Positions 3,101-61,331 of a stretch of DNA of 64,000 nt are shown here, one piece after another (position 1 is the first letter of the stretch; each line of letters begins with the position of its first letter). The stretch is from positions 34,300,980 to 34,364,979 of the forward strand of contig JALIGW010000005.1 in assembly GCA_023053685.1 (NCBI GenBank), in the 5' to 3' direction. This DNA is from Diadophis punctatus similis. Its lineage: Eukaryota; Chordata; Lepidosauria; Squamata; Dipsadidae. A program made the translations under genes and the position numbers. The notes beneath the pieces are model-generated. The model saw nothing but the letters and a program-made list of their open reading frames with translations, was not told the DNA's origin and searched no databases.

Positions 3101-6100
3101 GTGGCTGACGTTTCAGTAACATTAGGAGTCATTGAACAAACTGAACCAGAAGAAAATATGGAAATTTTTCAAGAAAATGAAAAGGAGCCACAACCTGATG
3201 TCTTTGTTGCAACACCAGGAACATTGACAACAAGGCAACAAGAACTGAAGGATAAACTCACAGCCCATACTGTATTAAATGCAGTAAGAAGACGGCTTCC
3301 AACTTTGAAAACTGTGCCCAAAAAACGACTTGCACCGCTGATGAAGGATGTGAACACTGTACTTGCTACGGTCCAAATAGCATCCATTGAACAAATAAAT
3401 CAGTTTGCTTATAGTACAGCAGTAATAGTAACAGAAGAGCTTGGGCTCCTGCAGCCTCCTAGAAAATCAACTGGAAAACCAAAATGGAAGATCAGGTTGG
3501 AGTTGAAAATAAAAAGTTTACGATCAGATGCAAGCAACTTGAAGAGTATGAAAGAGAAAAAACTGAAGAATGAGAAGATCAAAAAATACCTGATCAGAAG
3601 GTACTGGCTGAATACCAGAAAAATCGAAGAAGTTCTGGAAATTGTGAAAGAACAAATTACAGCAACAGCCAGAAAAATCGAAAGATATGAAGCCAGAATC
3701 ACCCAGTACAAACAAAACCAACTGTTTCAATTAGACCAAAGGCGGTTCTACCAGACCTTGAATCAATCAACAGACATAGTAGTTGAAAAGCCTGAGAAAA
3801 CTGAAACAACTGCATTTTGGAAAGAGCTCTGGGAAAATGAGAAGGACTATAACAAAAATGCTGGGTGGATAAAAGAGTTTGAGGAAAAATTCTCACACAA
3901 GAAAATGGAACAGATGCAAATAACAACTGAAATGATCAGCAAACGTGTGAGGAAAGTAAAGAACTGGACATCACCTGGCAGTGATCAACTGCATGGATTT
4001 TGGCTCAAACATCTGACTAGTCTGCATGAAAAAATGGCCCAAAAATTCAATGAGATGCTGCAAAAAGGAAGTATCAGTGAATGGTTGACAACTGGGAGAA
4101 CATATCTGATACAAAAAGACCCAGCAAAAGGAGCAGCACCAGGAAATTATAGGCCAATAACTTGTCTACCCACTATGTTTAAACTATTGACTGGCATTAT
4201 GGCTGACAGAATTCAAGATTATCTTGAAGAGAATGACATCTTACCAGATGAACAGAAAGGCAACAAACGAAAAAGCAGGGGCACAAAAGATCAGCTTTTG
4301 ATTGATAAAATGATTCTGGAGAATTGCAAAAGCCGAAAAACTAATCTTCACGCAACATGGATTGACTATAAAAAAGCTTTTGATTCACTCCCACACAGTT
4401 GGATCATCAAGTGCCTAGACACCATTGGGATTTGTAAAAATGTTGGCAGTTTTATTGAAAACATGATGAAGCACTGGAAAACTGAACTGTTTGTGGGAAA
4501 TGAAAATTACGGATTTGTCAACATCAAAAGAGGAATTTTCCAGGGAGACTCATTGTCACCATTACTTTTTATCATTGCCATGATTCCGCTGTCAACAATC
4601 TTACAAAAAACAAACCTTGGCTATCAAACATCCAAAAAATCTAATAAAATTTCACACCTGTTGTACATGGATGATCTGAAGTTGTATGGAAAAACTGAAA
4701 CTGAAATTCAGTCTCTGACCAACATTGTCCGAATCTTTAGCAATGATATCAGCATGGAGTTTGGTTTGGACAAATGTGCCACAGTAGCATTGAAGAAGGG
4801 CAAAATCACTGAAAGTGTGGGCATAAACATGCCTAATGGTCAAGCCATAAAGTGTCATCAGCCAGAGGCCTATAAATACCTGGGCATACTACAACTGGAT
4901 AATATCAAACATGATCATGTGAAGAATGTGGTCAGTAAAGAATACACACAAAGAGTCAGAAAAATTCTCAAAAGCAAGCTCAATGGAGGCAACACCATCA
5001 AGGCCATAAACAACTGGGCTATACCTGTTATAAGATATACTGCTGGCATAATAAACTGGACACAGGCTGAACTGGACAATTTGGACAGAAAAACAAGAAA
5101 ACTCATGACCATTCACCATTCACTTCATCCTCGTAGTGATGTCGACAGACTATATCTGCCCAGAAAAACTGGTGGCAGAGGACTTTTACAAGTAAAACAA
5201 ACAGTAGAAGAAGAAAAACATGCATTGGCAGAATACGTCAAAGAAAGTAAAGAACCTGCATTGATTGAAGTAAACAACCGGAAGCTTCTGAAAGTGCAGC
5301 AGACCAAGCATCAGTATAGGAAAACTGCAATGCAAACTAGAGCCGACAGTTGGTGCAATAAAGCCTTGCATGGACAATTCCTCAACAAGATTGAAGGAAA
5401 AGTTGATAAGGAGAAGATCTGGTTATGGCTCACTAATGGAACACTGAAGAAGGAGACAGAAGGCTTGATTCTTGCAGCCCAGGAGCAAGCAATTAGAACA
5501 AATGCAATCAAAGCCAAGATTGAAAAATCAGCTGATGATCCAAAATGCAGACTTTGCAAGGAAGCTGATGAAACAATTGATCATATCCTCAGCGGCTGCA
5601 AGAAAATCGCACAGACGGACTACAAACAGAGGCACAACTACGTGGCCCAGATGCTTCATTGGAACCTGTGCCACAACTACCACCTACCAGTGGTAAAGAA
5701 CTGGTGGGATCATAAACCTGAGAAAGTAGTTGAAAACAAACATGCCAAAATACTTTGGGACTTTCGAATTCAGACTGACAAGGTTTTTGAACATAATACG
5801 CCAGACCTCACGATTGTGGAAAATAAAAAAGTGTGGATCATTGATGTCGCCATTCCAGGTGACAGTCGAATTGATGAAAAACAACAAGAAAAACTTAACC
5901 GATATCAGGACCTTAAAATCGAATTACAACGACTCTGGCATAAACCAGTACAGGTGGTCCCAGTGGTAATCGGCACACTGGGTGCTGTGCCAAAAGACCT
6001 TAACCGGCATTTGAAAACAATAAACATTGACAAAATCACGATCTGTCAGTTGCAAAAGGCCACCGTACTTGGATCTGCGCGCATCATACGAAAATACATC

Positions 6101-6112
6101 ACACAGTCCTAG
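3101..6112 (+). CDS. R4/Dong-like polyprotein: reverse transcriptase, CCHC finger, restriction-like endonuclease
   Basis: An open frame of 1,003 codons. The first codon is GTG and only marks the position after the amber stop; the first ATG is at 3,158. Residues 1-250 are lysine- and glutamate-rich and probably helical. The RT spans about 290-640: NYRPITCLPTMFK near 349-361, motif A IDYKKAFDSLP near 421-431, motif B GIFQGDSLSPLLF near 478-490, and motif C YMDD at 522-525 with both catalytic aspartates. A CX2CX8HX4C finger lies at C816, C819, H828 and C833. A restriction-like endonuclease core follows, with PD at 901-902, D915 in VWIIDVAIPGD, and K931/Y935. In this family the endonuclease nicks the target and the RT primes reverse transcription there. 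All catalytic motifs look intact and there is no frameshift. It is known as a clade feature, not shown here, that such proteins act in cis on their own RNA. Confidence 0.93.
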   Translation: MADVSVTLGVIEQTEPEENMEIFQENEKEPQPDVFVATPGTLTTRQQELKDKLTAHTVLNAVRRRLPTLKTVPKKRLAPLMKDVNTVLATVQIASIEQINQFAYSTAVIVTEELGLLQPPRKSTGKPKWKIRLELKIKSLRSDASNLKSMKEKKLKNEKIKKYLIRRYWLNTRKIEEVLEIVKEQITATARKIERYEARITQYKQNQLFQLDQRRFYQTLNQSTDIVVEKPEKTETTAFWKELWENEKDYNKNAGWIKEFEEKFSHKKMEQMQITTEMISKRVRKVKNWTSPGSDQLHGFWLKHLTSLHEKMAQKFNEMLQKGSISEWLTTGRTYLIQKDPAKGAAPGNYRPITCLPTMFKLLTGIMADRIQDYLEENDILPDEQKGNKRKSRGTKDQLLIDKMILENCKSRKTNLHATWIDYKKAFDSLPHSWIIKCLDTIGICKNVGSFIENMMKHWKTELFVGNENYGFVNIKRGIFQGDSLSPLLFIIAMIPLSTILQKTNLGYQTSKKSNKISHLLYMDDLKLYGKTETEIQSLTNIVRIFSNDISMEFGLDKCATVALKKGKITESVGINMPNGQAIKCHQPEAYKYLGILQLDNIKHDHVKNVVSKEYTQRVRKILKSKLNGGNTIKAINNWAIPVIRYTAGIINWTQAELDNLDRKTRKLMTIHHSLHPRSDVDRLYLPRKTGGRGLLQVKQTVEEEKHALAEYVKESKEPALIEVNNRKLLKVQQTKHQYRKTAMQTRADSWCNKALHGQFLNKIEGKVDKEKIWLWLTNGTLKKETEGLILAAQEQAIRTNAIKAKIEKSADDPKCRLCKEADETIDHILSGCKKIAQTDYKQRHNYVAQMLHWNLCHNYHLPVVKNWWDHKPEKVVENKHAKILWDFRIQTDKVFEHNTPDLTIVENKKVWIIDVAIPGDSRIDEKQQEKLNRYQDLKIELQRLWHKPVQVVPVVIGTLGAVPKDLNRHLKTINIDKITICQLQKATVLGSARIIRKYITQS

Positions 6113-9675: not shown

Positions 9676-10505
9676 GTGGGGAGCAGCAGTGGTGGCATTC
9701 AGGGCAGGGGATTTGGCTGGTGCGAGGTGCTTTGGGGAAGAGCCAGGGAGCATTCCAGGAAGCCTCACTATCCCCCCCGCACAGAGGTGGGTTCCTGCCA
9801 GAGCTGCCTGGTGCACACCTCCGGTAGGGAGCAACCGATTGCGCAATTTGCACACAACCTCTCCAGAGCCCTCTCTGCTGGTCCATCGCGTGCATTGCCA
9901 TTTTTTTGGTGAATTTTTGGCCAATTTTGCTTCTGCGCATGCACGGAAGCAAAATCACGCCAAAATCTCGCGAGGGGACGCACACACATGTGAGATTTTG
10001 GTGAGATTTTGCTTCTGCGCATGCGTGGAAGCAAAATTGTGCTGAAATCTTGCACATGTGCGTGTCCCCTCGCAAGATTTTGGTGCAAAATTGTGCGAGG
10101 GGGCGCACGTGCGTAGCGAGCGTGCACGCATCTGAAGCATGGAGATGCGTGCGCAGCACACCGGCACTGGTAAGGGAGCAACCCACCACTGCCCCCACAG
10201 CTGTCCTGTCCAAAATGCCGCTGTGAGCATCCCAAGCAAGATTTGGTGAGGTGCTTCAGAGAAGAGCCAGGGAGGCTTCTGACACTGCTGTCTTTCACAC
10301 GCTCCCCTCTCTCCCTGTGCATGTCAGTTCACCTGCCTCCACCGCCAGCCAGGCCAGGTGGCATTCCGGGAAGCCTCACCTCTCCCCAAACCACGACTGC
10401 TGTCCTGTCCCAAGCAAGGTGGGGAACGGCAGTGGTGGCATTTGGGCCACGAGATTTGGCTGGTGCAAAGCACTTCAGGGAAGAGCCAGGAGGGTTCTGA
10501 TGCCA
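9676..10505. repeat. Diverged direct repeats inside the 3.5-kb hAT
   Basis: A block reading roughly 'AGCAAGGTGGGGA.CGGCAGTGGTGGCATT…GAGATTTGGCTGGTGC…CTTCAGGGAAGAGCCAGG' starts at about 9,672 and 10,408, with a shorter relative at about 10,230. A fourth, inverted match lies at about 11,165-11,214. The element's interior therefore grew by internal duplication. Confidence 0.7.
9925..10095. repeat. Palindromic CGCATGCG-containing patch
   Basis: Two copies of GCTTCTGCGCATGC followed by GGAAGCAAAAT (about 9,929 and 10,011) are each self-complementary. They are interleaved with GAGATTTTGG / CAAAATCTCG blocks on both strands. Each centre is an NRF1-like TGCGCATGC motif. Confidence 0.7.
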
Positions 10506-20321: not shown

Positions 20322-20800
20322 AGCTCATAAAATTATCTGCTACAATGTCCTTCCTGTCAACGACTATTTCAGGTTCAACCACAACAATACACGAGCACAC
20401 AACAGATACAAACTCAAAGTGAACCGCTCCAAACTTGACTGTAGAAAATACGACTTTAGCAATAGAGTGGTAAATTTATTTATTTATTTATTTAAACGCT
20501 CTTATAGGCCGCCCAATCCCGTGGGACTCAGAGCGGCGTAATGCCTGGAACTCACTACCTGACATTGTGGTTTCGTCACCAAACCCCCAAAACTTTACTC
20601 TTAGACTGTCCACTGTTGACCTCACCCGATTCCTAAGAGGTCAGTAAGGGGCATGCATAAGTGCACCAGCGTGCCTACCGTCCCTGTCCTAATGTTCCCT
20701 CTTATCAGTACTCATTTTATGTATATAAACAATGTTATATCTATGTATATTACCAACACGTACTTGACAAAAATAAATAAATAAAATAAATAAAAATAAA
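20322..20800 (+). mobile_element. LINE family A (L2-like), 3' end, copy A2
   Basis: Same C-terminal coding region and 3'UTR as copy A1 at 2,075, ending in an AAATA-rich tail (20,770-20,803). The reading frame is interrupted at about 20,470 by a 66-bp insertion. If that is ignored, the frame still ends at the family's TAA at about 20,645. Confidence 0.85.
20470..20537 (-). mobile_element. Ultra-short SINE/RTE tail insertion inside LINE A2
   Basis: About 66 bp reading (TTTA)n then ACGCTCTTATAGGCCGCCCA…GGGACTCAGAGCGGCG. Read on the minus strand, this is the 3' terminus (GGCCGCCC…CTATAAGAGCG plus AAAT tail) shared by squamate SINEs and their BovB/RTE partner. The LINE resumes at TAATGCCTGG. A GTAA duplication fits the junctions (GGTAA | CGTAA). 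Only the tail was inserted. Confidence 0.75.
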
Positions 20801-24108: not shown

Positions 24109-24515
24109 CAGTGATGGCGAACCTATGGCATGCGTGCCACAGGTGGCATGTGGAGCCATATCTGAGGGCACGTGAGGTGTTGCCCTATGTCAGCTCCAAC
24201 GCGCATGCACACTCTGGCCAGCTGATTTTTGGCCTTCTTTTCGGCTGTTTTTGCTCTCCCCAGGCTTCAGGAAAGCCTCCTGATCCCTGGGGATGGCAAA
24301 AAATGGCCCAACCGGAAGTTCGTTTCCGAAATTCTGGTTGGTCCATTTGGCCATTTTTCGCCTTCCCCAGGCTTCAAGAGTCTGGAGGCTTCAGTGTGGC
24401 CTGTGCGCATGCACGGGCGGGGGGAAGAGGGCATGGGTGTTGGCATGTGTGTGTGCTAGTGCGTGCACGCACACATCCTTTTGGCACCCGAGCCAAAAAA
24501 GGTTCGCCATCACTG
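24109..24515. mobile_element. Non-autonomous hAT element, CAGTGATGGCGAACC family, copy 2
   Basis: Begins CAGTGATGGCGAACCTATGG, ends AAGGTTCGCCATCACTG, with a perfect 8-bp duplication CTATATAC (24,101-24,108; 24,516-24,523). It is 68 bp shorter than copy 1 at 22,274, with the same orientation and the same CCCCAGGCTTC repeats. The TGCGCATGCA motif near 24,404 is kept. Confidence 0.96.
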
Positions 24516-25520: not shown

Positions 25521-26551
25521 CCGTATTTTTCGGAGTATAAGACGCACCTTTTAACCCCCCAAGAGGGTGAAAACTTGGGTGCGTCTTACACACTGAATGT
25601 AGCCCCACCCACCCAGCCACCCCCACCCTTTGGCCTCTGTCTTCCAGCAATTTGCCTGTTTGCAGCAAAGAGAGAAGAGCCTGTAAAGCCAACCAAGTCA
25701 CTAGCAGCTTTCCGATGTACAGCTGATTTGCCACGTGGGAAAATGAAAGTGAAACTGATTTGCAAAGAGGCAAATAGCTGGGAGAGACACACAGATTTTT
25801 ATTTTCTGCTGAACTGGATGGAAGGGTGTAAGTGAATAACTATAAATGTCTGTAGAATGTTCAAATTATTAGATTTATTTTTTAAAGTCTGCTTTATTAT
25901 TGTTCTAGAGCCAGGGGTCTTCAACCTTGGCAATTTTAAGACTTGTGGTCTTCAACTCCCAGAATTCCACAGCCAGCTTTGTTAGCTTTGCTGGCTGTGG
26001 AATTCTGGGAGTTGAAGTCCACAAGTCTTAAAGTTGCCAAGGTTGGAGACCCCTGTAAATCTAGACAACTTAACAAAATAAAGAAGCTTTTTAAAATAAA
26101 TGCTTGCTCTGAAGAGGCCCAGTGCTATTGTATCTTCTTTTAAATAATAGAGAATAATGTATACTTCCAGAAATTTTAATTAATTTGTACAAGTATAGCT
26201 CTGTACAAGTACAAGCTCTGTACAAGTATAGTCTGAAATATAACAGTGTCCTGTTTAGTATTAGAGTTTAGTTACCTTGGAGTAGATCTATTTAAATAAT
26301 TGGGAGGACTTAGTGTGACTACATTTAGGAAAACTTTCTGGCATAATGTACATTTCTCCAATTCTTTGCTATTTCTATGGGTCAGGTACACATGCACAGA
26401 AATACACAGCAAACAGTGTATATCATCTGTGCTGTTTGCTGTTTGCTGTTTGGCAAATTGCTTGGAGGCAGAGGCCTTTTTTCCTTGTTTTCCTCCCCAA
26501 AACTAAGGTGCGTCTTATACTTCGGTGTGTCTTATACTCCGAAAAATATGG
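25521..26551. mobile_element. TA-flanked TIR transposon (CCGTATTTTTCGGAG family), copy 2
   Basis: Begins CCGTATTTTTCGGAGTATA and ends …TATACTCCGAAAAATATGG, with TA on both sides (25,519-25,520; 26,552-26,553). A GGTGCGTCTTA(C/T)A block repeats inside both ends, as in copy 1 at 14,215. The interior is different: AT-rich sequence and one hAT MITE, without the GC-rich hairpin. No transposase is seen. Confidence 0.87.
25912..26055. mobile_element. hAT-type MITE nested in the TIR transposon
   Basis: A 144-bp palindrome CAGGGGTCTTCAACCTTGG…CCAAGGTTGGAGACCCCTG with CTTCAACTCCCAGAATTCC arms around a short AGCCAGCTTTG…CTGGCTG centre. The target duplication is not clear (TCTAGAGC versus TAAATCTA), so it may have moved with the host element or decayed. 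Confidence 0.85.
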
Positions 26552-26553
26552 TA

Positions 26554-27118
26554 GGTAAGGGACAAGTAGGTCCAGTCAAAGGTACTTTTCCCAAGTGCAA
26601 TTTTAAGTAGGATTCAAGTAGTCTTACCTCTTGCAAGTAGGAGATGAAAGGTGAATTACCTTGCTTCAGGCATTCTCCTCCATTGCTCTGGCCACCATTG
26701 CTCCATTGCTCTGGTCAGCCTGTGCACCCACCATTTCTCTTTACCCTCTCAATTAGTGCTGTATTTTCTGAGTTTCTTTCAAAGTCATCAGTTCCTTTTC
26801 CCTATTTTAAAATTAAGTTTCCAGGCAATCTGCCTTCCAACAACAAAGAAGAAAAGTAAACCTATTGCCAGATACAATTTTATTTATGAAAGGAGGGAAG
26901 GCATATTTAAGCAACACTGAAATGGCATTAGAGTAGATATAGCAGCCCTGCTTTCCCTATTAAAATAAGAAGTGTTCTCATTTGCCACCCAGTCATAGTG
27001 TGGTCGGTCTCTTCCTCTCTGAAATGATTTCTGTCCTGGTGTGTCCTTTATATATGTCTAATAACAGCTGCTTCAACCCACGAAAAGTTTATACATTCAT
27101 TTATAATTGATAGCAATC
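26554..27118. other. Unassigned sequence
   Basis: No gene or recognisable repeat seen. Confidence 0.4.
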
Positions 27119-27126
27119 TTCTAATG

Positions 27127-27492
27127 CATGGGGTGTCAAACTTGATTTCATTGAGGGAAGCATCAAGGTTGTGTTTGACCTCAGGGGGACGAGGTGGGCG
27201 TGGTTGGGGTGGGCGTGGTCAGCTTGACATCACTCGTGTCGGGTGTCTGTGAAGGCCCGTGGTGCCTCTGCCAGCGAAAACGTGCTCCCAATCTCCGTTT
27301 TCGGCTGGGACAGCCTCCTGTAGCCCTCTGCCAGTGAAAATGGAATTTGGGAGGGCCATTTTTGCTGGCAGAGGGTGGCAGGAGGCTGTCCCACGGGCTG
27401 ATTCTTCGCTCTTTTCAGTGTGGGCCCGCGGGCCAGATTTAAGCACCACATGGGACGGATCTGGCCCCCAGGCCTTGAGATTGACACCTCTG
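27127..27492. mobile_element. Non-autonomous hAT element (GGGGTGTCAAACTTGATTTC family)
   Basis: Begins CATGGGGTGTCAAAC and ends GATTGACACCTCTG, with flanks TTCTAATG / TTCTAAGG (7 of 8 identical). The interior includes an inverted pair around CCTCTGCCAGCGAAAA / TTTTTGCTGGCAGAGG and CAGCCTCCTG / CAGGAGGCTG. No coding capacity. Confidence 0.9.
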
Positions 27493-27500
27493 TTCTAAGG

Positions 27501-28435
27501 CCTTTGTTCTTGTCACATAGTTTTCTCTTATACACTATCTACATAGAGGATAGGATAAGTGCAACCTAATGGATGAGGCATAAAAACAGATATGAAAACC
27601 ATTTGGTGTGCTTATAATAACTAGTGCAACCACTGTACTAAACAGTGCAGTTGGGTATAGAATTACAATAGACACAACAGAAGCTGAACAGGGATTAGTG
27701 ATGCGGATATTCAGTATTATTTTATGCTGAACACAAGGAGTTGAATAACACTTTAATTAAATAGTGAGGAAATAGCCATGGAAATATAAGTGCATTTTAA
27801 TATTCATTACAAGAGATGCAACCTTGTGTCCTTCAGTTTTTCAAAATAAAATATAAATAATTACATTGATTGTTATATGTGAATTATGCTTTCAGGCATA
27901 ACTGACATGAAAGAGTATATGGAAATCAATATATTTTAAAATATAAATCACAAATATATGAACTCTGCATTTTTAGATACTTCTCTCATAAATCTGAAAT
28001 ACATTTGTTATTCCAGAACCAGCTGATATAAATGCTGTCTACACATTTATAGACAGGCCAGCTCAGAATGACTTTGGCAGTCCTTAGGTCTGCTGAATCT
28101 CTCCAGAAGTTTAGAAACAGCTAAGCTAACCTTTAGCCTTACAGTAGAAGAAGCTGAAATATAAGATTTATCTTCCCTTTCACAGGCCATATATCTGTAT
28201 ATTTCCTCTTCAGGAAGATGCTGATAGCAATCTTTCAACAATCCTTTTATTCTTTCTCCTACATTCTTTCTCTATTCCCCCCACCCCTCAAATTCTGTAC
28301 CCTTCTACACTGCTGAAAATATGAGTGTTTTCTAGATATGATGGGGATCCATTATTTTGTAGAGAATTTAGAGGGATCAAAATAATCTTTTGTAATTATT
28401 ATCCTTTAAAGCTAACATATTTTGTAACTCCCGCC

Positions 28436-33545: not shown

Positions 33546-33547
33546 GT

Positions 33548-33555
33548 TTGTTTGT

Positions 33556-33642
<87 letters not shown>

Positions 33643-33645
33643 TTT
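33548..33645. repeat. (TTTA)n microsatellite, expanded tail of a minus-strand SINE
   Basis: About 24 TTTA units directly preceding TTTGTGAGACTTATATACCGCC, the 3' end of the split S1 SINE read on the minus strand. The SINE's AAAT tail has expanded. Confidence 0.95.
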
Positions 33646-33688
33646 GTGAGACTTATATACCGCCTCAAAGTGCAAGCACTCTCTAAGA
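33646..33688 (-). mobile_element. S1 SINE, 3' part, cut by the FOXF1-carrying hAT
   Basis: GAGACTTATATACCGCC…CACTCTCTAAG matches the 3' part of the SINE at 38,669 (same strand). The remainder resumes at 35,438 after the hAT insertion. The last eight bases CTCTAAGA (33,681-33,688) are the left target duplication. Confidence 0.9.
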
Positions 33689-33774
33689 CAGGGGTGGCCA
33701 AACCATGGTGCATGCGTCAAACGTGGCGCATTGGCTGATTGCAAGTGGCGCATTGCAATCATCCAACGGACAGA

Positions 33775-34258
33775 AAAGGTGACACTGTTTTAGAGAGCGA
33801 AAGTGATTCCGACCGCGGAGCAGAGGTGCCTGGCGCCCACCAATGTTGAGTTGAGAGGCGGCGGGAAGGGGGGCAGGGGCAAGGGGCGGGGTCTGCTCCC
33901 TCTGCCTCTTACGTCACGCTGTTAAGAGCCACCAGGCGCCCGCTGACTCGCGATAAAGTGAAAGGCAGTCGCTTCGGCTGGGGGCAGACCGGTGATTCCA
34001 CATGCAGAGCAGCAGCGGCGGCAGCAGTTCCTGGGTGGCAGAGACCTGGGGGGCTGGAAGGAGGAGGAAATGCGGGGCAGGTGGGGTGGAGGGGGGAGCG
34101 AAAAGGAGAAGGCCAGATCCTCCGTGGAGCCTGAAGAATCGGGAGGGGGGAAGGGTGAGGAGGAGGAGGAGGAAGAGGAAGGAGATTGTAAATTAAAAGG
34201 AGGAGGAGACAGAGGAACGAAGGAAGGAAAGGAAGGAAAGGAAGGAAGGAAAAAAGGA

Positions 34259-34350
<92 letters not shown>

Positions 34351-34704
34351 GAGTAACCCCTGTGCCGAAAAGCAGCAAGATCCAGGCAGCCGCTCCTAGT
34401 TTGGATCCCCGGGAATAAATCCCGGGGTGGGGGCGGGAGTTGGACACCTTCCTTGCCAAGAGGGGCGTGCCTTCGCGTCACTGCTCCTTCTTTCCTGGGT
34501 TCCTCCGAGGTAGCTGCCTGACGCAATCGGCGCTTGAAGAAGAGGTGCCCCGCGGATCGCAGGCCCTCGGTGGTGGAAGGCGGGAAGTCAAGTGCGCGGA
34601 GGAGCAAGCCGGGTGCGCGCATGCACGCCTGGAGAGGCCGGTCCCCTCCCTTTGCGCCCCAGAGCCTGTCCTTAGGGAGGGGTGGTGGCATTCGGTAGCC
34701 GTCG
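33775..34704 (+). other. CpG-rich segment, probable captured FOXF1 upstream/5'UTR sequence
   Basis: High GC and many CpGs inside the hAT, directly upstream of the forkhead frame. It contains a CRE-like TTACGTCA at 33,909-33,916 and GC-rich stretches resembling a CpG-island promoter. It is interrupted by GGAGGA and GAAA repeats (about 34,130-34,352). Assignment to the FOXF1 promoter or leader rests on position and composition only; I cannot align it. Confidence 0.45.
34216..34352. repeat. (GAAA)n/(GGAA)n microsatellite
   Basis: GGAAG-type repeats grading into about 24 GAAA units inside the captured segment. The minus-strand open frame of 341 codons across it is an artefact of phenylalanine/leucine/serine translation of this repeat. 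Confidence 0.97.
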
Positions 34705-34992
34705 ATGACCGCAGGGCTGCTGCTGCACGCTCCTGCCTCTCGCCCGCCGCCGTCGCCGCCGCTGTTGCCCAAGGCCGGGGCGTTTGCTATGTCCGCAGCC
34801 TCCGACAAGCCCCAGCCGCTGCTCGGACCAGCCACCACCATGGAGGCCACCTCGTTCAACAGTTCCTTGATGCCCAGAAGCAGCGGCGGTGGCGGCAGCG
34901 GCGGCCTGAAGACCAAGAAGAGCAATGCGGGCATCCGCCACCCGGAGAAGCCGCCCTACTCCTACATCGTACTGATCATGATGGCCATCCAG
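34705..34992 (+). pseudogene. FOXF1: FOXF1-like 5' coding fragment, truncated inside the forkhead domain
   Basis: In-frame ATGs at 34,705 (MTAGLLL…) and 34,789 ([10 protein letters not shown]…) lead into a glycine-rich linker, [10 protein letters not shown], and then [17 protein letters not shown], the start of a forkhead DNA-binding domain. The KSNAGIR-(R/H)[17 protein letters not shown] junction and the short N-terminus fit FOXF1 better than FOXF2, from what I know of the family. Homology stops after CAG at 34,990-34,992. The next bases are a GAAA repeat, so recognition helix 3, the wings and the activation domain are absent. Three changes in an otherwise near-invariant segment (R to H, A to V, V to M) are of the transition type expected from neutral decay. 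FOX proteins bind DNA in the nucleus and FOXF1 patterns lateral mesoderm; this fragment cannot do so. Confidence 0.85.
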
Positions 34993-34995
34993 AAG

Positions 34996-35077
34996 AAAGA
35001 AAGAAGTTAGGAAAAAAGGAAGGAAGGAAAGAAGGAAGGAAGGAAGGAATGAAGGAAGAAAGATAGAAAGAAAGAAA

Positions 35078-35146
<69 letters not shown>

Positions 35147-35208
35147 GTTAGGAAGGAAGGAAGACAGAAAGAAAGAAAGAAAAAGATGTTAGGAAAGAAG
35201 AAAGATGA

Positions 35209-35291
<83 letters not shown>
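34996..35291. repeat. (GAAA)n microsatellite with interruptions
   Basis: Nearly 300 bp of GAAA/GGAA units, broken by GATGTTAGGAA(G/A)GAAG twice. It starts directly at the 3' end of the forkhead fragment, so the original capture breakpoint has been overgrown. Confidence 0.97.
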
Positions 35292-35366
35292 TTGTATGGC
35301 CGCCCTGAGTCCTACGGGAGTGGGGCGGCATATAAAAACGACAAAAAAATAAATAAATAATAAATG
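35292..35366 (+). mobile_element. SINE/RTE 3' tail fragment inside the hAT
   Basis: TTGTATGGCCGCCCTGAGTCC…GGGGCGGCATATAAA followed by an AAATAAATAA tail. This is the plus-strand version of the tail found at 20,470 and 30,908, somewhat diverged. It is again only the last about 50 bp of the source element. Confidence 0.75.
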
Positions 35367-35437
35367 GCGGATCGGAACTCGTCTGCGAAAAAATTTGGCA
35401 GATGGTATGCTTAAGGTTGGCCACCACTGCTCTAAGC

Positions 35438-35628
35438 GGTTTACACCATTAAGCAATGTATATTTATATTGCCCCCAACAATCTGGGTCGTCATTTTACC
35501 TACCTCGGAAGGATGGAAGACTGAGTCAACCTTGAGCCGGTGAGATTTGAACAGCTGAACTGCTGATCAGAGTCAGCTAAAGTAGCCTGCAGTACTGCAC
35601 TCTAACTGCTGCGCCACCTCGGCTCATA
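35438..35628 (-). mobile_element. S1 SINE, 5' part, after the hAT insertion
   Basis: CGGTTTACACC…ATTGCCCCCAACAATCTGGG…GACTGAGTCAACCTTGAGCC…CTGCGCCACCTCGGCTC. Read on the minus strand this is the SINE body, B box and A box of the copy whose 3' end lies at 33,646. Together with 33,646-33,688 it makes one complete S1 SINE. Confidence 0.92.
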
Positions 35629-35631
35629 GTT

Positions 35632-36150
35632 GTAGCCCCAGCTCTGATTGGCTGCAAAATGTGCACACTTTTGGCTTCTACCCAGAGTGGATGAAGAAAG
35701 CTTTCCTTGCTTTCCTACCACATGGCCACAGTAGTACAGAACTTCCCTTTCTTTTCCTTTTTTAAATGAAATCCACTTTAAGTTGCAATTTGGCCATTGC
35801 CACCTTGTTTCTATGAAACTGAACTAACAATTCTTCCGTTTCCATTGATCTGCAGAACAACAAACCACCAAAGAAAGTTTTGTTTTCATTCTACTTGCTT
35901 TGATTACCATAGCATCAGAGCAGCAATGCTATTGTGGGGGGGGGGGGGGAGAAAAAAAGAATGGTTCAAATTTACTGTCAAAGGAGATAATGTGGGAGGG
36001 GGTGTGAAGGCATCCATGTATGCAACTATATGGAAAAGCAAAGAAAAGGTAGAGGGACTAGCAAGGAAGGAACAATTCTATTGGTCCTGCAATAATCATA
36101 GTCCAGATTGAGTACCAGTCTGACTTCAATCCATTTCAACAGAGACAGAA
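35632..36150. other. Unassigned sequence
   Basis: A G-run at about 35,935-35,949; no gene or recognisable repeat. Confidence 0.4.
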
Positions 36151-53046: not shown

Positions 53047-53554
53047 CAGGGGTGGGTTCCTACCGGTGCGGTCCACTCTATAGCACCGGTAGCAGCCCGC
53101 TGGTGATGTCACAGTACCGGTACGGTCGGTTGCCAGTGCCTAGGTGCCGCCATTTTTTTTAAAAAAATTATTATTTTGTTTTTATTTTCTTCTGTGCATG
53201 CCCAGAAGCCGAGCTTCCGGCACTGCGCATGCGCTGCCTTCCTACCCCACAGTGAGTCCAAGCAGGGGAGGATGGCTGAGGGAGCGCGTGAGACACTGAA
53301 AGAACAGGCGGCAGGAGCCTAGGATCATCGAATGGGGAGAAGCATTCAGGCCGGACGGAGCCTCCTAGAAGAACCGCTGCCGTGGTCTTGCTGCTCCCAC
53401 TGCGGGGGGCTGCGTTGCGGGTGGGCAATGCCCCCCGCTTCTCCATCCGCTGCCAAGCTCCCAAGGCCCACCCGGTCACATGGCTGGCAAGCCACACCCA
53501 CAAAATAAGCCACGCCCACAGAGTGGTAGTAAAAAAATTAGGAACTTGCCCCTG
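53047..53554. mobile_element. Non-autonomous hAT element (CAGGGGTGGGTTCC family)
   Basis: Begins CAGGGGTGGGTTCCTACCGG and ends AGGAACTTGCCCCTG, with a perfect 8-bp duplication GTATATAA (53,039-53,046; 53,555-53,562). CTGCGCATGCGC at 53,223-53,234 matches the NRF1 consensus. A right subterminal CCACACCCACAAAATAAGCCACGCCCAC block is typical of this squamate family. No transposase. Confidence 0.96.
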
Positions 53555-54308: not shown

Positions 54309-55745
54309 CAGTGGTGGGATTTAATTTTTTCTACTACCGGTTCTGTGGGTGTGGCTTGGTGGGCATGGCTTGGTGGGGCAGCACCTTGCTGTGAGTAACA
54401 TTGAGTTGGCCATGCCCACTCAATCACATGACCCCCACCAAGCCACTCCCACTGAACCTGGTAGTAAATTTTTTTGAACTTACAGCTATTGCAGACTTTT
54501 TCTACCTATTATTTTCTGCCCAGGGTCTGAGGTGGCTAAACTCAGAATCTGTCAAAGGCCTCCTACTGCATGCCGACTGCTCTCCCTTCACCACATGTTG
54601 CCCCATTTCCCCTCCTTCAGAGGCCCCAGCCCTTACTCAATCTCCCCGCTTCCTCCCCCAGGGAAGACCGCCTCTTTCTTCATCCCATGACCTTACCTTC
54701 CTCCCATGGCTGGCTGCCAGGGAAGGTAAGCCAGGGCTGAGCTGTCACTGCTGGGCTCCCCGCCAGCCCACATTTGTTTGCCCCCCTTGTCATGAGAAGC
54801 TGAAAAAGAGGTGGTGGCTGCAGGCTTCTTGCGCCAATAACTACTGGGCTCCGCTTCTCAAATGCGCTGAAAAAGAGCTTCAGTCCTGTGACTGTCGCCA
54901 CCATCGCTGCCCTGTTCTATGGTGCGCATGCGTGGATGGCACAAAGAACAGGGCGGCGGTGGCAGCGTCCACGGGACTAAAGCTCTTTTTCAGCACATTC
55001 AAGAAGCGGAGGCCGGTAGTTATTGGCGCAAGAAGTCTGCAGCCGCCGCCTCTTTTTCAGCTGGCAGGGAGCCCAGTGGCGACGGCTCAGCCCTGGCTTG
55101 CCTTCCCTGGCAGTCAGCTATGGGAAGAAGGTAAGGTCATGGTGGAGGAAGTGGGGAGATTGAGTAAGGGCTGGGGCCTCTGAAGGAGGGGAAATGTGGC
55201 AATACGTGGTGAAGGGAGAGCAGGTGGCATGCAGGAGGAGGCCCTGGGAAGGCCGGAGCCAGGAAATGGCGCATTCCCTGACCCGACCAAGGTGGGCGGC
55301 AAGTGAGGTGGCGGCTCTGGGGCAAGGCTGGAACTGGGGAATGGCATGTTCCCTGACCTGGCCGAGGTGGGCGGTGAGTGGGTGGAGCCTCCAGGGCCTC
55401 AGGGAATGGCACATCCCTGAGCAGCGGCCCCCAACCCAAGGCAAAGGGTGAGTGGGTGGCAAGCTTACCTTTGGTGAGCTGAGCAGAGCGGGTGAGGCGC
55501 AGAGGTGACTGGCAAGGCGATTAGCTGGGCCATGTGGCGAAGGCAACATATATAGGGATGGGCGGTGTGAGCGTCGGGTGGGTGGGTGGGGTGAGCGTTG
55601 AGCAGGCGGGTGGGGCGAGTGAGCATCGAGCAGGTGGGTGGGGCAGGGGCCACCCAGAGGTGGTATTTAATGGTTTGGCGAACCAGTTAAAATTGCCACT
55701 ACCGATTTGCCCGATCTGGTCCAAACCGGCTGAATACCACCTCTG
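54309..55745. mobile_element. Non-autonomous hAT element with a giant internal palindrome
   Basis: Begins CAGTGGTGGGATTTAAT and ends GAATACCACCTCTG, with a perfect 8-bp duplication GAGTGTAC (54,301-54,308; 55,746-55,753). The left subterminal region has GTGGGTGTGGCTTGGTGGGC repeats and the right has GGTGGGTGGGGC repeats. The interior is dominated by an inverted repeat. The open frames of up to 260 codons are palindrome artefacts without a recognisable domain, and no transposase is present. Confidence 0.95.
54557..55248. repeat. Inverted repeat, arms over 300 bp, centred on GTGCGCATGCGTGG
   Basis: The left arm (about 54,557-54,917) carries GGCCTCCTACTGCATGCC, AGGCCCCAGCCCTTACTC and GACCTTACCTTC. 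The right arm (about 54,946-55,248) carries the complements GAAGGTAAGGTC, GAGTAAGGGCTGGGGCCT and GGCATGCAGGAGGAGGCC. The arms meet at CCCTGTTCT…AGAACAGGG around TGCGCATGCG (54,923-54,932). Confidence 0.9.
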
Positions 55746-56989: not shown

Positions 56990-57125
56990 CAGTGTTTTTC
57001 AACCTTGGCAATTTTAAGATATGTGGACTTCAACTCCCATAATTCCTGAAGTCAACATCCTGGCTGGGGGAATTGTGGTAGTTGAAGTGCATACATCTTA
57101 AAGTTGCCAAAGTTGAGAAATGCTG
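56990..57125. mobile_element. hAT-type MITE (CAGTGTTTTTCAACC)
   Basis: A 136-bp palindrome, CAGTGTTTTTCAACCTTGGC…GCCAAAGTTGAGAAATGCTG, with CTTCAACTCCCATAATTCC arms. The flanks CTCTGGGA / CTCTGGGT (56,982-56,989; 57,126-57,133) match at 7 of 8. It is older than the copy at 213-358: the arms differ at many positions. Confidence 0.92.
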
Positions 57126-61002: not shown

Positions 61003-61331
61003 CAAGGGTGGGTTCCTCCCGGTTTGGACCAGTTCGCCCGAACCGGTAGGGGCCTGCTGGTGACATCCCGATGATGTCACCGAACCAGATCGGTCGGTGC
61101 CGGTCCGTGGGCATCACCATCTTTTAAAAAAAACATTTAAATTTTATTTTTCCTTCTGAGATGCGCAGTAGCCAAGTTCCAGCACTGTGCCTGTGGTCGC
61201 CATCTTGTTTTCAGCTTTGGTTCCCCCCCCAGATTTTTTTTACTGCGCATGCTCGTGCGTGCCCATGCGGCACGCCCACACAGCGCGTGAGGGACCGAAC
61301 CAGCAGCGAGGTAAGTTGGAACCCACCCCTG
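61003..61331. mobile_element. Non-autonomous hAT element (CAGGGGTGGGTTCC family)
   Basis: Begins CAAGGGTGGGTTCCTCCC and ends GTTGGAACCCACCCCTG, with a perfect 8-bp duplication AATAGACC (60,995-61,002; 61,332-61,339). CTGCGCATGC at 61,243-61,252 again. Same family as 53,047 and 50,939 but shorter. Confidence 0.96.

Follow-up and report, generated by a model that had tools for sequence, protein, structure and literature searches.

Pack-MULEs and other plant Pack-TYPE elements are non-autonomous TIR elements that shuffle GC-rich 5′ gene DNA. In animals, 370 Pack-TIRs are given for 100 genomes in the survey text of PMC8277862, 208 of them hAT elements and four of them multicopy. The same text describes Pack-hAT-N8_XT of the western clawed frog, a hAT that carries 291 bp of the CAPSL 5′UTR and is present in three copies (PMC8277862). 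The multicopy Pack-hAT is a known kind of element in animals, then, and a rare one in the survey that defines Pack-TIRs, as far as that part of PMC8277862 goes. An initial annotation of the locus analyzed here described gene capture as sparsely documented for vertebrate hATs; the 208 animal hAT Pack-TIRs make that view partly outdated, and what stands of it is that only four Pack-TIRs are multicopy (PMC8277862, survey text). A literature search of titles and abstract openings returned no title on a FOXF1-carrying hAT; the term Pack-TIR turned up in one paper, PMC8277862.

The chimeric element and its insertion site

The window, that is, the whole stretch of 64,000 nucleotides of Diadophis punctatus similis DNA that was analyzed, contains at 33689-35429 a non-autonomous hAT with the inverted ends CAGGGGTGGCCAAACC at 33689 and GGTTGGCCACCACTG at 35429. 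The target duplication around it, CTCTAAGA versus CTCTAAGC, is identical at 7/8 positions. The host sequence of the insertion is a SINE, which the element splits. When the flanks are joined via one target copy, they align across the join to 3/3 other SINE copies within the window; the join itself is ungapped, and one of the three alignments has a 1-base gap immediately past the target copy. The ends, the duplication and the gapless rejoining bear out the initial reading of a hAT insertion into a SINE.

Table 1. Features of the chimeric element and the interrupted SINE (window positions)
Feature	Position	Strand	Remark
Interrupted SINE, 3′ part with TTTA tail	33547..33680	-	SINE alignment
Left target-site duplication CTCTAAGA	33681..33688	.	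7/8 with right copy; TA at positions 4-5
hAT left end, 147 bp, terminal repeat CAGGGGTGGCCAAACC	33689..33835	+	92-95% to three sister elements without FOXF1 DNA
Left capture junction, GCG common to hAT and FOXF1 locus	33833..33835	+	3-bp microhomology
Captured FOXF1 upstream DNA and leader	33833..34704	+	Contiguous in parental C365:1711386-1712600(-)
GAAA tract native to FOXF1, inside captured upstream DNA	about 34200-34354	+	Present in parental locus
Captured FOXF1 codons 1-96, end mid-exon within forkhead domain	34705..34992	+	Protein and DNA matches
hAT-side GAAA tract	34993..35291	+	Similar tract in sister element L022
Retroposon-like tail GTTGTATGGCCGCCCTGAG...AAATAAAT, part of hAT family	35292..35362	+	Also in copies without FOXF1 DNA
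hAT right end, terminal repeat ...GGTTGGCCACCACTG	35363..35429	+	End alignment
Right target-site duplication CTCTAAGC	35430..35437	.	7/8 with left copy
Interrupted SINE, remainder	35438..35640	-	SINE alignment

The short terminal inverted repeats CAG...CTG and the 8-bp target-site duplications (7-8 of 8 positions identical in 17/19 FOXF1-bearing rows) are those of the hAT superfamily. The Buster group has the target consensus nnnTAnnn (PMC3517528, in the part available), and all 17 matched targets contain TA at positions 4-5 in at least one of the two copies. The ends and target sites of the window element are Buster-like. Pfam transposase profiles had no match in the frames of the window element, and inspection by eye, in place of a profile search, of the top five frames in each of nine relatives of 2.4-3.4 kb showed no transposase-like frame. 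Because no transposase was found in the frames searched, the window element is not filed as an autonomous hAT. An Rfam search gave zero matches.

Nine CA...TG elements whose ends and duplications match were identified in a scan of the window, the FOXF1-bearing element included, against 0, 0, 2, 0 and 1 in shifted-target controls; given these controls, one or two of the window's hAT-like candidates may be due to chance. A near-palindromic element of 146 bp at 213-358, with the duplication CTCTACAG on both sides, matches the FOXF1-bearing element over its first 21 bases with one mismatch. Further hAT-like candidates with duplications of 7-8 of 8 lie at 9782-10191, 24109-24515, 26342-27888, 53047-53554, 54309-55745, 56990-57125 and 61003-61331; three of them (9782, 53047 and 61003) overlap with CpG-rich DNA. 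The window also holds an unbroken frame of 1003 residues with a reverse transcriptase domain (3101-6112; RVT_1, E 7e-31), which may represent a young LINE, and, within another repeat, an isolated retroposon tail some 60 bp long (20476-20539) that resembles the tail in the right end of the hAT family.

The FOXF1 parent and the copies of the chimera

FOXF1 homology in the window element starts at 34705 (MTAGLLL...) and extends over 96 codons to 34992. The initial annotation was correct in recognizing a FOXF1-type N terminus in this frame, but frame comparison places the annotated start of snake FOXF1 at 34705, 28 codons upstream of the MSAAS start that had been named. Likewise, what had been called the first quarter of a forkhead domain is a partial domain, covering 16-19 of 88 profile positions, under the Pfam cut-off; with the forkhead incomplete to this extent, a functional FOXF1 paralogue or other working FOX gene was rejected. 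The best match of the frame is Ahaetulla prasina FOXF1, with 79% identity over the 68 residues searched (E 7e-22) and 76/96 identical residues over the full frame. A protein search with length padding returned 4 of 28 candidates, all of them named FOXF1 or FOXF1-like. In a protein tree of 12 rows, from which P0016, P0014, P0059, P0017 and P0119 were left out, the fragment groups with three snakes at a support of 86/88, under the 95/80 mark. Chance is excluded as the source of the likeness by the E value, the 76/96 identities and the FOXF1 locus of the genome itself, which matches contiguously at the DNA level.

In the genome searched (1.78 Gb, 419 contigs), FOXF1 exon 1 lies at C365:1710604-1711671(-), with 98% protein identity to Ahaetulla prasina FOXF1 over residues 1-356, and exon 2 is found on the same contig, where residues 339-406 match C365:1702882-1703082. 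Element positions 145-1305 match this locus as a single piece, at 88% by gapped BLAST with the GAAA tract included and at 93.0% over 998 aligned sites outside that tract; the captured piece measures 1,161 bp versus 1,215 bp in the parent. The stretch in common (window 33833-34992) comprises upstream DNA, the GAAA tract, the leader and codons 1-96. A contiguous parent thus confirms that, as proposed, upstream, leader and exon-1 DNA of FOXF1 was captured, and the alignment of the CpG-rich interior that had been suggested as a check spans the upstream region and the leader, well beyond the forkhead motif. As for the extent of the capture, first put at 33775-34992, the right limit holds, but the left limit shifts to 33833-33835, since the sister elements too contain the hAT sequence of 33689-33835. 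In the fetched FOXF1 locus of 4,068 bp, neither hAT end (A or E) was found. CpG-richness alone was rejected as an identifier of a promoter, because three other hAT-like elements of the window overlap CpG-rich stretches too; the origin of the CpG-rich piece is settled because the parental DNA was matched.

The left end as it was before capture is seen in three sister elements (L022, L023 and L024) that have the same ends and no FOXF1 DNA. At the left junction, marked here by a slash, the sisters read ...CCCGGCG/AGCG, the parent ...TTTCC/GCGCCCACC and most copies ...CCCGGCGCCCACC or a mutated form of it, GCG being common to hAT and parent. This junction was printed for 19 FOXF1-bearing copies, with a few bases missing there in L009 and L014. 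The left microhomology could be longer, because GCGCCC stands on both sides. The right junction lies in mid-exon and has about 1 bp of microhomology: FOXF1 GCCATCCAG/AGCTCG becomes GCCATCCAG/AAGAAAG in 5/6 coding copies checked, L005 being unmatched.

The genome search for further copies, also suggested at the outset, found 21 that carry FOXF1 DNA. With the upstream piece as query and 24/24 candidates scored, it identified FOXF1, the sole non-element locus with this piece, and 20 element copies, one of them (C10) in pieces; 19 element copies hold all or nearly all of the 360-base query, and L025 has only part of the upstream piece. L021, which consists of codons and right end with no upstream piece, raises the total to 21. 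Twelve further rows are matches of 30-46 bp, 11 of them outside the FOXF1-bearing copies. Short matches to the far 3′ portion of the upstream query form a tandem cluster at G000:C354:2148346-2149704, probably a purine-rich minisatellite.

Coding DNA is present in seven of the 21 copies (L001, L002, L003, L004, L005, L007 and L021), L008 retains the upstream piece together with most of the leader, and 12 copies (L009-L020) have the upstream piece with neither leader nor codons. In most of the shortened copies listed, the match ends at about 660-668 and restarts at about 1305 (element positions), which are the inner edges of two GAAA tracts: the captured and the hAT-side tract flank leader and codons, and the stretch between them is missing from the 12 shorter copies. 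The right end of L012 was not found.

Target duplications of 7-8 of 8 accompany 17/18 copies with both ends mapped, or 17/19 if L018 is counted; L012 and L021 fall outside the both-ends count, and for L008 and L018 the left end was placed manually. The 17 matched target sequences are all different, and each has the central TA in at least one copy (the right copy of L004 reads TT). The duplication of L005 is 1/8 as printed and fits only after a 1-bp shift (ATGTAGAC/ATGTAGAG), and that of L018, which has lost its left end, is 2/8. Among the sister elements, the duplications of L022 and L024 are 8/8 and that of L023 is 3/8, which amounts to none. Because 17/18 copies have their own 8-bp duplication, the chimera transposed after capture, and the multiplication that the initial annotation had raised as a possibility is a fact. 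L002 and L003 differ at only 11/998 sites, yet their duplications differ, which indicates that movement went on after the main spread.

The carrier family is larger than its FOXF1-bearing members. L047-L057, on several contigs, are GC-rich members of 2.4-3.4 kb, most of them flanked by exact target duplications, and their right ends resemble that of the window element at 92-98%. Nine relatives of 2.4-3.4 kb with the same ends contain the interior piece of L023; both this piece and the interior of L024 are repeats (judged from the best 40 of 657 and the best 40 of 3045 candidates scored). The interiors of L023 and L024 provide no evidence of a second gene capture, and the notion that the carrier family captured many host genes is not supported by these two interiors, which are themselves repeats. 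On these comparisons, the FOXF1 chimera is a small branch within a larger non-autonomous family.

Pack-TIRs are delimited in the part of PMC8277862 that defines them by several criteria. Between the ends of one TIR element there should be 100-5000 bp of non-TE sequence, here 1,160 bp. The parent should show at least 90% identity and a length ratio of 80-120%; the values are 93.0% outside the GAAA tract, 88% gapped, and 1,161 versus 1,215 bp, identity being measured by BLAST where the criteria use BLAT. The 100-bp flanks of the parent should be TE-free, and the ends of the carrier family, which alone were screened for, are absent from the 4,068-bp locus. The sequence should not be a retrocopy of a multi-exon gene, and it is contiguous upstream genomic DNA that stops in the middle of exon 1. 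Finally, the common junctions and different target duplications are those of a multicopy Pack-TIR. With high confidence, then, the window element is one copy of a multicopy Pack-hAT, in agreement with most of the Pack-TIR criteria that could be tested.

Origin and decay of the captured DNA

The alignments used for the tree and for the codon and CpG counts contained 18 copies of the upstream piece, 7 of the leader and 6 of the codons; L012, L021 and L025 (short match) were left out. The six codon-bearing copies are 91.1-94.2% identical to the parent over upstream piece, leader and codons. The upstream tree is star-like, with 1/16 inner branches well supported, and full and shortened copies are intermixed on it (6 changes versus a shuffled mean of 6.8; as low in 75/200 shuffles), a pattern that repeated shortening would give and an unresolved tree would give too. 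Over five independent lineages, 63 nonsynonymous changes compare with 63.7 expected under neutrality with the observed spectrum, L002/L003 being counted once (L002); with both counted, the values are 72 versus 76.7. Nonsynonymous changes are fewer than expected in L002/L003 and in L007 (P 0.02-0.04) and more than expected in L001 and L005 (0.985 and 0.986), and selection might conceivably have acted on single copies.

CpG transitions are found at 390/2148 CpG sites versus G/C-to-A/T transitions at 128/5321 other G/C sites, about 7.5 times faster, in counts that take each copy separately and include shared changes more than once. The majority sequence of the copies has 107 CpGs, of which 1 is decayed in the parent, and the parent has 114, of which 7 are decayed in the majority sequence of the copies. 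In the window copy, 13/20 amino acid differences from Ahaetulla fit CpG loss, whereas the expected share is 0.06-0.12, or 0.19 among transitions only. The simplest reading of the CpG pattern would be germline methylation in the copies that is absent from the parent. Because the pooled codon changes fit neutrality and the CpGs decay fast, the FOXF1 pieces in the copies are most likely methylated and silent or inert. The suggested scattering of CpG-rich developmental DNA thus holds for the upstream piece as such, with its 20 element copies, but the CpG decay argues against promoter activity.

The explanation that very probably holds as a whole is Pack-hAT capture by template switching, followed by spread, GAAA-mediated shortening and silent decay. 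The FOXF1 DNA gained by this high-copy, non-autonomous, Buster-like hAT amounts to about 1.16 kb, made up of upstream region, leader and codons 1-96, and would have entered by DNA-level template switching, over 3 bp of microhomology on the left and about 1 bp on the right, such that FOXF1 was copied in between ...CCCGGCG and the GAAA tract of the hAT; the initial capture may have taken the form of gap filling or fork switching. The chimera retained functional ends and, moved by a transposase presumably supplied elsewhere, reached at least 21 sites in a burst that was followed by at least one later hop. In 12 copies, leader and codons could then have been lost when the captured GAAA tract recombined with, or slipped against, that of the hAT. 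The copies lose CpGs fast and show no clear coding selection; presumably they are methylated and silent.

Most animal Pack-TIRs are single-copy products of gap filling with microhomology (PMC8277862, as surveyed there), and the 3 bp at the left junction of the window element would suit a broken hAT that was repaired on site, within the SINE, with FOXF1 DNA and never transposed as a chimera. Such a history is highly improbable, given that the left junction is common to 19 printed FOXF1-bearing copies (two missing a few bases), 17 of which have their own duplications of 7-8 of 8, and that FOXF1 lies on contig C365 and the window on C364. The common junction and separate duplications refute gap filling at the window site; it may still explain the first capture at the founding site. 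A FOXF1 mRNA retroposed into the hAT deserves just as little credence. The retroposon-like tail 3′ of the FOXF1 fragment recalls such an event, but it occurs also in family members without FOXF1 DNA; moreover, ahead of the start codon the fragment has about 870 bp contiguous with genomic DNA, the gene's own GAAA tract among them, and it stops in mid-exon, to be followed by the GAAA tract of the hAT rather than by poly(A). Least credible of all, to the point of being negligible, is an assembly artefact in which a FOXF1 gene fragment was misjoined into a hAT: the coding fragment does lie between long GAAA tracts, places prone to misjoins, but the left junction is about 365 bp ahead of the first such tract, the same junction is seen at 19 printed loci, which are spread over many contigs and differ in their duplications, and the FOXF1 gene stands elsewhere with exon 1 unbroken.

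There is a slight chance that the copies encode a retained FOXF1 N-terminal peptide or act as promoters used by the genome or the element. The frame over the FOXF1 codons is free of stops in 6/7 coding-bearing copies (in L021 it is split over two frames), and two lineages have the deficit of nonsynonymous changes noted above; against this, a copy would be stop-free under neutrality with a probability of 0.80-0.95, and the pooled nonsynonymous changes equal expectation. The window copy alters R79, A89 and V92, and these residues are R, A and V in 111/111 FOXF-type proteins with the motif (120 fetched, 9 without the motif). Retained function is further at odds with the loss of leader and coding sequence in 13/21 copies, and active promoters with the 7.5-fold faster decay of CpG sites.

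Relation to known systems

The case amounts to a natural experiment, with one CpG-rich developmental upstream region placed at about twenty new sites while the original is still in place. The copies have lost CpGs that the parent has kept, so that what protects a CpG island at its native locus becomes open to direct test. It is unlikely that a vertebrate hAT served here as a vehicle of promoter dispersal, such that some of the 20 upstream-bearing copies would still initiate transcription or serve as enhancers in lung, gut or lateral-plate mesoderm, and would have rewired neighbouring genes in this lineage.

Like the FOXF1 element, plant Pack-TYPE elements are non-autonomous TIR carriers of GC-rich 5′ gene DNA; unlike them, the FOXF1 element is a hAT, resides in a vertebrate and traces to one capture event found, versus many in plants. 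Pack-hAT-N8_XT, as described in the survey text, resembles it as a vertebrate hAT that took up the 5′ portion of a host gene and went on to transpose, each copy having its own duplication; the frog element has 291 bp of captured DNA in three copies, whereas the FOXF1 element has about 1.16 kb, with transcription factor coding DNA, in 21 copies, 12 of them shortened (PMC8277862). Ssk-FB4 of Drosophila melanogaster is likewise a multicopy TIR element with 5′ upstream and genic DNA taken from a host gene, at a distance from that parent; according to the same part of that source, however, its authors place it nearer MULE, it contains nearly the whole gene, and its protein is under positive selection, whereas the FOXF1 codons are pooled neutral (PMC8277862). 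In the ends themselves, the nearest likeness compared is with the non-autonomous Buster2 elements of bats, whose repeat CAGGGGTGGCCAACCT agrees, in a count by eye, at 15/16 positions with the right end of the FOXF1 element and at 14/16 with the left (PMC4298943). The bat elements measure 246-337 bp, and the part of PMC4298943 at hand describes no captured gene in them.
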